A DNA stretch of 64,000 bases from an uncultured Paracoccaceae bacterium (lineage in GTDB: Bacteria > Pseudomonadota > Alphaproteobacteria > Rhodobacterales > Rhodobacteraceae). The notes below the pieces were generated by a model. The model saw only the letters and a list, made by a program, of their open reading frames with translations, was not told the origin of the DNA and did not search any database. The translations under genes were made by a program, and so were the position numbers. Shown one piece after another: positions 7,364 through 48,531 of this stretch. Every line of letters starts with the position of its first letter. Position 1 is the first letter of the stretch. The DNA is taken from positions 310,001 to 374,000 of the forward strand of contig CANLVD010000002.1 in the NCBI GenBank assembly GCA_947494445.1. The letters run 5' to 3'.

Positions 7364-7437
7364 TGGAGCGGGTAGCGGGAATCGAACCCGCACCTTAAGC
7401 TTGGAAGGCTCTTATGATACCATTTCACCATACCCGC
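7364..7437 (-). tRNA. tRNA-Gly (anticodon TCC)
   Basis: A 74-nt cloverleaf including an encoded CCA. The acceptor arms GCGGGTA and TACCCGC pair; the anticodon loop is CTTCCAA giving TCC; the T-arm is GCGGG-TTCGATT-CCCGC. No integrase or duplicated 3' end is seen nearby, so it is not an obvious integration site. Confidence 0.97.
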
Positions 7438-45945: not shown

Positions 45946-47208
45946 ATGTCCACCGATCCATCCCTGTGCCGCGACTGCCTGCATCTGAGTGTCGGGCAAA
46001 ACCGCTGCCCGTCCTGCGGCTCACCAAGGCTGATCAGGCATGCGGAACTGACCCAATTGTCGATTGCACATATGGATTGCGACGCGTTCTACGCCTCGGT
46101 CGAGAAACGCGACAACCCGTCCTTGCGCGACAAGCCGGTGATCATCGGCGGGGGCCGGCGTGGTGTGGTTTCAACAGCCTGCTACATCGCCCGGATCAAG
46201 GGTGTGCGTTCGGCCATGCCGATGTTCAAAGCGCTTGAACTGTGCCCAGAAGCCGAAGTCGTGCGCCCGCGCATGTCTGTCTATGTCGAGGTGTCGCGGC
46301 AGATTCGCGCCATGATGGAAGACATGACCCCGTCCATCGAACCGCTGTCGCTGGACGAGGCTTTCCTTGACCTAACCGGAACCGAGCGACTGCATGGTGC
46401 GCCACCGGCGGTCATGATGGCTCGGCTAGTCCGGCGGATGGAACAGGAGTTGGGTCTGTCCGGATCTGTCGGCCTGTCGCACAACAAGTTTCTGGCCAAG
46501 ATCGCGTCAGATATGGACAAACCGCGGGGATTTTCCGTCATCGGGCGGGCGGAGACCGAAAGTTTTCTCGAAGGACAGTCGGTTTCGGTGATCTGGGGAG
46601 TTGGGGCTGCGATGCGCCAGACGCTTGAACGTGACGGCATCCGCACCATCGCCGATCTCAAGCGCCGCGACCGCAAGGCGCTTTGTGATCGCTACGGGTC
46701 CATGGGTGACCGGCTCTGGCATCTCTCTCACGGTCTGGACGCGCGCAAGGTTTCCAGCCGCAACCAGACCAAGAGCATTTCGAACGAGACCACATTCAAC
46801 GAGGATATCACCGATCCGGATCTTCTGGATGGCCATATATGGCGCCTGAGCGAAAAGGTGGCGGATCGGGCAAAAGCAAAATCTCTGGCGGGATCCGTTG
46901 TGCAGCTGAAGCTGAAACAGGCGGATTTCAAGCTGATCTCACGCAGAACCGCCCTGCACCAGCCCACGCAACTGACCCATATGATCTATGCACAGGCCCG
47001 GGAAATGCTGAAGAGAGAGCTGCCGCAGGCCCCGTTTCGGTTGATAGGTGTGGGCATCAGCGGCATCGTTGAGGGGCATCTGGCTGATATCGAGGATGAT
47101 TTTCTGAGACCTGAAGCAAAAGCCGCCAGCGCAGCGGAAAAAGCCGCAGACAAGATCCGCTCCAGATTCGGCCCCGATGCCATTTTGAAAGGCCGTTCGC
47201 TGCGGTAG
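45946..47208 (+). CDS. dinB: DNA polymerase IV with N-terminal zinc-ribbon-like segment
   Basis: Y-family translesion polymerase of 420 residues. The catalytic palm begins IAHMDCDAFYASVEKRDNP and carries LSLDEAFLDLTG (second metal site). GLSHNKFLAKIASDMDKP and GVGAAMRQTLERDGI are in the thumb, and the little-finger domain follows. Before residue 40 lies an extra module with C8, C11, C21 and C24 (CRDC and CPSC), which looks like a zinc ribbon and is absent from E. coli DinB. No second start codon fits the shorter form well. No LexA box was identified. Confidence 0.93.
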   Translation: MSTDPSLCRDCLHLSVGQNRCPSCGSPRLIRHAELTQLSIAHMDCDAFYASVEKRDNPSLRDKPVIIGGGRRGVVSTACYIARIKGVRSAMPMFKALELCPEAEVVRPRMSVYVEVSRQIRAMMEDMTPSIEPLSLDEAFLDLTGTERLHGAPPAVMMARLVRRMEQELGLSGSVGLSHNKFLAKIASDMDKPRGFSVIGRAETESFLEGQSVSVIWGVGAAMRQTLERDGIRTIADLKRRDRKALCDRYGSMGDRLWHLSHGLDARKVSSRNQTKSISNETTFNEDITDPDLLDGHIWRLSEKVADRAKAKSLAGSVVQLKLKQADFKLISRRTALHQPTQLTHMIYAQAREMLKRELPQAPFRLIGVGISGIVEGHLADIEDDFLRPEAKAASAAEKAADKIRSRFGPDAILKGRSLR

Positions 47209-47325
47209 ACGTTCTGCGGATGCTGTAAATCTGTACATTTGAGCGGACATGCTCAAATTTCCGGCATGAAAGTCACGGATTTTACCAAGCGATCAAGAAT
47301 TCTCGATTTTTGTGCACCTGCACAG

Positions 47326-47351
47326 TTGACTATGCTGCACTGCGATATAAT
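47326..47351 (+). promoter_or_regulatory. Promoter-like hexamers before the sRNA candidate
   Basis: TTGACT (47326-47331) and a perfect TATAAT (47346-47351), with a short 14-bp spacer. Transcription would start near 47358. Confidence 0.45.
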
Positions 47352-47357
47352 CTCTGA

Positions 47358-47443
47358 ATTGTTGATGCGTTGCATCGACGTTCGCCCGTTTCGGGCGTTT
47401 CCTCCCTAGACTTGGGCCGTGCTTCGTGCACGGCCTTTTTTTT
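47358..47443 (+). ncRNA. Candidate small RNA with three hairpins and CCTCCC
   Basis: About 86 nt. Hairpin 1 is GATGC-gtt-GCATC (47364-47376); hairpin 2 is CGCCCG-ttt-CGGGCG (47383-47397). A single-stranded stretch with CCTCCC (47401-47406) could pair with Shine-Dalgarno sites. It ends in a textbook terminator, GGCCGTGC-ttcgt-GCACGGCC (47415-47435) plus eight T. A consensus -10 box lies just upstream and no ORF explains the structure. The loop motif recalls the CCUCC-bearing stress RNAs of Rhodobacter (resemblance only). Confidence 0.6.
47415..47443 (+). terminator. Intrinsic terminator of the sRNA candidate
   Basis: A perfect 8-bp stem, 5-base loop, and T8 run (47436-47443). Confidence 0.9.
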
Positions 47444-47465
47444 GCAAATGTCTGGGATTGCAGCG

Positions 47466-48323
47466 TTATTCAGCTGCCAGCGAGAGTGCTGTACCGCCCT
47501 GCTGGGCCAATTGACCAACGACCTTGCGCAGTGCCGCTTCCATCTCGGCAAAGGCACCAGACTTCTCAAGGGTCAACTCATCCATGTAAAGAGCCCGGTC
47601 GATCTCGATCTGTACAGCATGGATGTTCTGCGACGGACGGCCATAAAACTGGGTAATGTACCCTCCGGCAAAGGGCGCATTGCGGGCAACGACAAAACCT
47701 TGCGCTGCAAAGATATCCTGTGCCGCATCCATCAGCCACCGCATGCAGGATGACCCGAACCGATCGCCAAGCACGATATCGGGCCGCTTTCCTTTCACCA
47801 TGGGGGCTGAACAGAGCGCATCATGAGGCATCGAGTGGCAATCATAGAGGATCGCCATGCCATGTCGGTCGCGCTGGGTTTTCAAAAGCGCGCGCAACTG
47901 GTTGTGATAGGGGTCATAGACCTCACGCAGTCGCTCCATCGCTTCCTTGCTTGTGATCTTGCCGTCCCGGATCACCCGGCCCTCGGACACCACACGGGGG
48001 ATCACACCCAGACCTGCTGCAATCCTCGGGTTGGTGACACTGCGCTGAATGCCCTCGATCAGGGCTGGGTCCAATTCGTCCCGCGCCCGGTTGAGGTCCA
48101 CATAGGCCCGTGGCAGACGCGCCGACAGAAGGGGCGCGCCATTTTCCGGTGCACTGGCAAAAAGGTCATCAACATAGGCATCCTCCGAAGACCGGATGGC
48201 CTTTGCGTCAAGCTTTCCACTGTCCAGAAAGGCACGCGGATACCTAGAGCCCGAATGCGGTGAACTGAACACCGCACAGGACGACCAGACATTGGGCGCA
48301 TTCAGGCAGAAGGAAGAATTCAA
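47466..48323 (-). CDS. N-formylglutamate amidohydrolase family protein
   Basis: A 285-residue protein of the N-formylglutamate deformylase family, last step of one histidine-degradation route. VFSSPHSGSRYP near the N-terminus, EDAYVDDLF, PRAYVDLNRARDELDP, LYDCHSMPH and GGYITQFYGRPSQNIHAVQIEIDR are family stretches. No in-frame ATG fits well. The TTG at 48323 is chosen because GGAG lies 8 bases upstream and it begins next to the conserved core; the frame stays open to 48419. No other hut gene is near, so the substrate is uncertain. Confidence 0.85.
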   Translation of the reverse strand: MNSSFCLNAPNVWSSCAVFSSPHSGSRYPRAFLDSGKLDAKAIRSSEDAYVDDLFASAPENGAPLLSARLPRAYVDLNRARDELDPALIEGIQRSVTNPRIAAGLGVIPRVVSEGRVIRDGKITSKEAMERLREVYDPYHNQLRALLKTQRDRHGMAILYDCHSMPHDALCSAPMVKGKRPDIVLGDRFGSSCMRWLMDAAQDIFAAQGFVVARNAPFAGGYITQFYGRPSQNIHAVQIEIDRALYMDELTLEKSGAFAEMEAALRKVVGQLAQQGGTALSLAAE

Positions 48324-48456
48324 GCTGCTGACTCCATGACCTGCGGCATATCTTATTCCGGTTTTCACCTCAAGCAAAAGGGCTTGAACACCGCACCGAC
48401 TCCTTTTATACGATCCCAACGCGAGACGGGGGGCAACCCACGTTACAGGTGTGTGC

Positions 48457-48531
48457 GGGCGTATAGCTCAGCGGGAGAGCACTTCGTTGACATCGAAGGG
48501 GTCACTGGTTCAATCCCAGTTACGCCCACCA
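48457..48531 (+). tRNA. tRNA-Val (anticodon GAC)
   Basis: 75 nt with encoded CCA. Acceptor arms GGGCGTA and TACGCCC; D-arm AGCTCAGCGGGAGAGC; anticodon stem CTTCG/CGAAG with loop TTGACAT (GAC); T-arm CTGG-TTCAATC-CCAG. Confidence 0.97.

Follow-up and report, generated by a model that had tools for sequence, protein, structure and literature searches.

A probable alpha-r8 (MmgR/SisA) small RNA gene with a predicted PhaR-type promoter site in an uncultured Paracoccaceae bacterium

Organization of the locus

The window, that is, the whole stretch of 64,000 nucleotides analysed here, contains a dinB gene for a Y-family DNA polymerase (45946-47208, + strand; Pfam IMS PF00817, 159.5 bits) and, convergent with it, a gene for N-formylglutamate amidohydrolase (FGase; 47466-48419, - strand; PF05013, 247 bits). 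The gap between the two holds a series of elements on the + strand, beginning with the hexamers TTGACT (-35, 47326-47331) and TATAAT (-10, 47346-47351), which are separated by 14 bases. These are followed by a 5′ hairpin (47361-47379), a second hairpin, CGCCCGTTTCGGGCG (47383-47397), and the 10-mer UUUCCUCCCU (47398-47407), a putative anti-Shine-Dalgarno seed that includes an open CCTCCC (47401-47406). An intrinsic terminator closes the series, with a 9-bp stem at 47414-47435 and eight T at 47436-47443. The gap, the short spacer, the TATAAT box, the two hairpins, the open motif and the terminator had all been pointed out in the initial annotation, and each of them is present. A transcript of ~86 nt (47358-47443, + strand) is predicted from the promoter and the terminator, its start being placed from the -10 box.

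The predicted fold of the 88-nt strand reaches -38.7 kcal/mol compared to a mean of -23.1 kcal/mol for 200 shuffles (z = -5.05, none of the 200 as low), and the one terminator found within 47200-47500 compares with 0.3 expected. A promoter scan demanding spacers of 16-18 did not report the TTGACT/TATAAT promoter, and its sole promoter-like site lies on the other strand. Mechanical reading frames that overlap the stretch include a 56-aa TTG frame (47239-47409) and a 127-aa TTG frame (47370-47753), the latter running antisense into the FGase gene. The window also contains tRNA genes at 48457-48528 and 7367-7437.

Identification as an alpha-r8 RNA

Rfam model RF00519 (suhB/MmgR, alpha-r8) matches the window at 47377-47451 (+ strand) with 60.4 bits against a cut-off of 41 (E = 5.8e-10, computed for the whole window), while no further sRNA family in Rfam attained its cut-off there. 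The initial annotation had taken the gene to be unannotated, but it is not undescribed, since RF00519 recognises it above the cut-off. Excerpts of PMC12559287 characterize alpha-r8 RNAs by a weak hairpin that precedes the 10-mer UUUCCUCCCU, by a Rho-independent terminator and, in most species, by an FGase gene alongside. In the window, the 10-mer is exact and unpaired in the predicted fold, a hairpin lies on its 5′ side, a Rho-independent terminator lies on its 3′ side, and the FGase gene adjoins the RNA. A covariance model of 11 sequences, built with the window excluded, recovers the window at 68.9 bits, and the genome itself has one RF00519 match above the cut-off.

The RNA belongs to alpha-r8 by covariance model, 10-mer, layout and neighbouring gene, and we consider it highly likely that 47358-47443 is this genome's alpha-r8 (MmgR/SisA) sRNA, a stand-alone gene of ~86 nt with predicted PhaR control. 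It is very probably one of an already described alphaproteobacterial sRNA family that blocks the ribosome-binding sites of mRNAs. The earlier proposal that the stretch encodes an sRNA whose anti-Shine-Dalgarno motif is exposed is supported, because characterized homologues act through this motif (PMC12559287, excerpts). The RNA is an ordinary yet well-supported member of its family, and what merits a test is its link to PhaR in this bacterial family; a literature search did not find MmgR treated together with Rhodobacterales.

Relatives were compared in a set of 22 selected loci, taken from 39 rows with the window included. The 17 rows dropped either lacked an FGase neighbour or had another spacer (GTTGG, GTCAG and single others), while L128 and L175 were retained despite having no FGase and L173 was retained with a distant one. 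This set was chosen largely by neighbourhood, so the FGase counts given below come from sets chosen otherwise.

Promoter and predicted PhaR control

Between the two hexamers, TGCACTGCG (47336-47344) fits the core YGCRNYGCR, a consensus derived from PhaR-regulated genes in a Sinorhizobium meliloti PhaR study (PMC12542648, excerpts). We took up this consensus after noticing a TGC-rich dyad in relatives, and counted it at -85 to -35 from CCTCCCT. The core occurs in 20 of the 22 selected loci, window included, compared to 2.5 expected from elsewhere in the loci and 1.8 in shuffles; the two loci without it are L130 and L137. A pattern scan supplied further loci that had no role in noticing the core, with 126 of 131 copies having enough flank, and among the matches listed 89 of these 126 carry it, compared to 7.2 expected elsewhere and 12.9 in shuffles (55 of the 70 copies next to FGase, and 34 of the 56 others). 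Many of the scanned loci are closely related and therefore do not represent independent events. Four of the 17 above-cut-off loci having the RNA core lack the PhaR core.

The short spacer had been read as a possible sign of an alternative sigma factor. No such factor is needed, because a PhaR-type core sits between the hexamers and, in 16 of the 20 loci with this core, the best-scoring hexamers picked by an admittedly crude procedure are 14-17 apart (11, 20, 20 and 25 in the other four). The TTG of the -35 hexamer is in the consensus of the 20 loci. Above the -35, the dyad TGTGCACCTGCACA (TGC-N4-GCA, 47311-47324) may be a second PhaR-type box, and a TGC-N4-GCA dyad whose middle letters differ can be seen by eye at the matching place in the same-genus relative L123. 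The mmgR dyad is reportedly TGC[N3]GCA, and an N-status heptamer is also said to have been described for mmgR. Excerpts of a review place mmgR under NtrC and AniA control.

The genome encodes PhaR (PF07879, 106.4 bits), Hfq and two phasins above the Pfam cut-off. Before the better-scoring phasin gene (L240:1309-1341), two PhaR-type boxes flank CTTGAC, around its -35, which is the arrangement described for S. meliloti phasins (PMC12542648, excerpts). The second phasin gene (L241) has no PhaR-type box before it, and a TGC-N3/4-GCA scan near phaR found none. We rejected TGCTGCNNYGCA as a regulon marker: it has 48 sites in the genome compared to 7 for the reversed form, and is too loose, many of the 30 sites inspected lying inside long frames. 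Boxes of this type also stand upstream of a crotonyl-CoA reductase-like frame and an ethylmalonyl-CoA-pathway mutase-like frame (L231, L232; names assigned by reading).

Some factor besides PhaR might instead be what binds the dyad of this alpha-r8 gene, or the dyad might be only a feature of the spacer, as the 2 of 22 selected loci without the core and the one weak half-site of the window core (GCG in place of GCA on the right) would allow. We consider this unlikely, given that the window core matches the motif of PhaR-regulated genes, that a phasin promoter of the same genome carries the core twice, and that in S. meliloti an EMSA shows PhaR on the mmgR promoter and the loss of phaR alters mmgR expression (PMC12542648, excerpts). 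The window core does not fit the Rhodobacter sphaeroides PhaR site as quoted, CTGCNNNGCAG; the window reads CTGCACTGCGA there. From its sequence, the promoter holds a conserved site that resembles a binding site of PhaR, the regulator of carbon storage.

SorX/SorY-like RNAs in the same genome

The initial annotation had likened the RNA to the CCUCC-motif stress RNAs of Rhodobacter, a comparison displaced by MmgR and SisA, which are its nearest kin. A photo-oxidative stress RNA like SorX, SorY or CcsR, transcribed with an alternative sigma factor and using CCUCCC to base-pair, would explain why the SorY (RF02651) and SorX (RF02784) models match the window at 36.8 and 32.1 bits, and why the layout CCUCCCU...GACUU...GGCCG is common to all three. 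Both scores, however, fall below the cut-offs of their models (111 and 46.6, respectively) and below the RF00519 score, the spacer is UAGACUU compared to UGUUGGACUU, the promoter is of the TTGACT/TATAAT type with a PhaR-type core, and the genome has separate SorX/SorY-like RNAs, leaving this reading very improbable.

Among these siblings, a SorX-like RNA (L183:1473-1539, - strand) scores 53.2 bits with the SorX model, above the cut-off of 46.6, and directly follows a response-regulator gene (L002:1617-2312). SorX is reportedly derived from a 3′ UTR, and its parent gene is of the OmpR type. A tandem SorX/SorY-like pair (L185:1292-1353 and 1473-1542, - strand) lies downstream of a LysR-type gene; one member scores 51.1 bits with SorX, while the other scores 56.8 bits with SorY, below the cut-off of 111, and 45.7 bits with SorX, just below the SorX cut-off. 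The response-regulator and LysR-type names were read from sequence. The siblings share CUCCCU with the alpha-r8 RNA, and the targets may therefore overlap.

Conservation and covariation of the hairpins

The initial annotation had made its reading depend on conservation of the hairpins in relatives. Counting the window, 21 of the 22 selected loci form a 5′ stem of at least 5 bp, and 21 different sequences occur among the 5′ arms. Shuffled segments form such a stem in 7.5 of 22 cases. Folded alone, the 5′ segment has a mean z of -1.97 over the 22 loci, with L136 at +1.83, and a mean z of -2.92 over the 126 pattern-scan copies among the matches listed, of which 112 are below -1. RNAalifold did not find the 5′ stem on the 22-sequence MAFFT alignment (A1), because the stems are misaligned there; the 5′ stems were then taken individually per locus, and on a sub-alignment of 11 sequences that excludes the window and was picked for having its stems in register.

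In this sub-alignment, 93.0% of the cells of the three-hairpin structure are paired, and its covariation score is 0.294, compared to 0.175 ± 0.020 when shuffled (none of 500 as high), the structure having come from the same alignment that was scored. Both sides change in 4 of the 7 pairs of the 5′ helix. In the second helix, 4 of 5 pairs are invariant, so covariation lends no support to this hairpin. Two of the five alignment measures are weak: further pair types number 17 compared to 15.8 when shuffled (141 of 500 as high), and pairs changed on both sides number 8 compared to 5.3 (16 of 500 as high). Three hairpins are not new to alpha-r8, since the predicted structure of MmgR also has three stem-loops, according to excerpts of a review. 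Most of a conserved 5′ hairpin is missing from the curated Rfam model; in the window, this hairpin lies mostly beyond the match.

It is hardly credible that the stretch is a bare terminator common to dinB and FGase with no independent RNA, as its place between convergent genes and the strong terminator at its end might suggest, given that a mere terminator would not be expected to come with a promoter, with a 5′ hairpin that covaries and with the exact 10-mer of the family, and that alpha-r8 homologues are proven sRNAs (PMC12559287, excerpts).

Neighbour genes and distribution

Of 18 loci inspected above the Rfam cut-off, window included (18 of 19 matches), 14 have FGase within the stretch covered. 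Among the matches listed for the pattern-scan loci, it is convergent and within 1 kb in 63 of 120, 111 of these 120 loci extending 900 bases downstream. In a covariance search across relatives, as the initial annotation had proposed, 198 genomes of the bacterial family were covered; 18 of them had an RF00519 score above the cut-off, and 86 had a match that reached E 0.001. The 11-sequence model reached E 0.001 in 56 of the 198 genomes and 44 bits in 18, some of which supplied sequences to the model. Both searches used strict filters, so that weak copies can be missed. The pattern TTTCCTCCCTN{0,4}GACTT gave 31/394, some with other spacers. Clear alpha-r8 copies are patchy in the searched genomes, although excerpts of PMC12559287 describe it as occurring in all Alphaproteobacteria save Rickettsiales. 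A further spacer type, CCTCCCTGTCAGACT, was seen in terminator-bearing RNA-like loci of relatives (L141, L142, L143, L147, L162 and L174).

The window's gene order of dinB, FGase and L36 recurs on a plasmid of Sulfitobacter sp. W027, where 2 bases separate dinB from FGase (L281:2661-2664). The alpha-r8 RNA is absent from that plasmid stretch, where the best model score is 7.2 bits (E = 0.29), although the strain may have a copy elsewhere; the RNA is therefore not indispensable at this site in the bacterial order. The host genome is placed in Rhodobacterales by its SorX/SorY-like RNAs and by protein matches. The best matches in the plasmid collection are both from Sulfitobacter (dinB 65.5%, FGase 50.6%). 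Among the matches listed for 80 of the 120 pattern-scan loci, the FGase is 54.9% identical over 175 aa to that of Oceanicella actignis (Rhodobacterales) and 55.8% identical over 113 aa to a Hyphomicrobiaceae fragment.

Candidate targets and proposed mechanism

In Caulobacter, SisA uses the 10-mer, together with Hfq, to repress mRNAs (PMC12559287, excerpts). The complement of the 10-mer, AGGGAGGAA, occurs 23 times in the genome, one occurrence being the sRNA itself, compared to 9 for the reversed form. Eleven of these sites lie 2-7 bases before an ATG frame of at least 102 aa, and their predicted duplexes with the RNA range from -16.3 to -22.1 kcal/mol. Ten of the 11 encoded proteins were scanned (all except L206, 102 aa), and five are solute-binding proteins, namely two Peripla_BP_4, two SBP_bac_1 and one DctP. 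The other five are a molybdopterin oxidoreductase, an aldolase/dehydrogenase, a glucose/sorbosone dehydrogenase, a phosphomannomutase-type protein and a CoA ligase. Target prediction over start regions, another suggestion of the initial annotation, thus yielded 11 candidates, but we claim no enrichment, because the intended control, AAGGAGGAA, has 7 genome sites and a single ATG start behind it. That AGGGAGGAA is ~3 times commoner than AAGGAGGAA (L186-L208, L243-L249; base composition uncorrected) is an odd preference among ribosome-site variants.

MmgR of Sinorhizobium limits PHB storage. The mRNAs of the two phasins above the Pfam cut-off were tried as targets and rejected for poor pairing (-6.3 and -6.4 kcal/mol), which means that the window RNA need not have the phenotype of MmgR. 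A crude scan for a CrfA-like sponge found no terminator-like structure behind any AGGGAGGAA site in the genome.

By analogy with MmgR and SisA, from which both direction and mechanism are borrowed, we infer that PhaR would repress the alpha-r8 gene when PHB is lacking and that storage granules would draw off PhaR and release the gene. The RNA would then bind Hfq, and UUUCCUCCCU would pair with G/A-rich ribosome-binding sites (AGGGAGG), lowering the translation of several mRNAs for carbon metabolism and uptake. By this prediction, the gene connects regulatory RNAs of a widespread type with the storage of carbon in another bacterial family. If the PhaR site works, PHB granules would have a simple way of acting on nutrient uptake, and the odd promoter spacer would be accounted for.

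A broader and quite tentative idea is that PhaR control of alpha-r8 is ancestral in Alphaproteobacteria, and that the granule-released RNA silences AGGGAGGAA-marked genes of uptake and carbon entry, here including those for periplasmic binding proteins, a TRAP receptor, a molybdopterin oxidoreductase and a CoA ligase, with targets held in common with the SorX/SorY-like siblings. Were this true, storage state and oxidative stress would converge on one set of messages.

Comparison with known systems

Excerpted descriptions of AbcR (alpha-r15) show a likeness in the anti-Shine-Dalgarno motifs, which occupy unpaired regions and are aimed at ABC-transporter mRNAs, although AbcR RNAs have two motifs and 114-120 nt, unlike the window RNA. 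SorX and SorY of Rhodobacter sphaeroides share with the window a CCUCCCU segment before a GGCCG terminator, and excerpts describe transporter mRNAs as their targets, which recalls the candidate targets here. Their spacers differ, however, and SorX, SorY and CcsR are described in such excerpts as being under stress sigma factors, unlike what is predicted for the window RNA.

SisA-D of Caulobacter crescentus, repressors that bind Hfq and act by way of the 10-mer, have the identical sequence UUUCCUCCCU, the preceding hairpin and the terminator, and sisA has an FGase neighbour, all as in the window. Caulobacter has four copies, while this genome has one match above the cut-off, and the Caulobacter sponge CrfA has no counterpart identified in this genome by the crude test above. 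The sisA-D promoters reportedly have no shared motif, in contrast to the PhaR-type core of the window promoter (PMC12559287, excerpts). The host of MmgR, Sinorhizobium meliloti, differs from that of the window, and the review excerpts place the MmgR motif in the first loop, whereas the fold predicted for the window RNA leaves the motif unpaired, with hairpins on either side. MmgR is like the window RNA in its RF00519 membership, terminator, anti-Shine-Dalgarno motif, three predicted stem-loops and PhaR promoter site, the last being predicted in the window.
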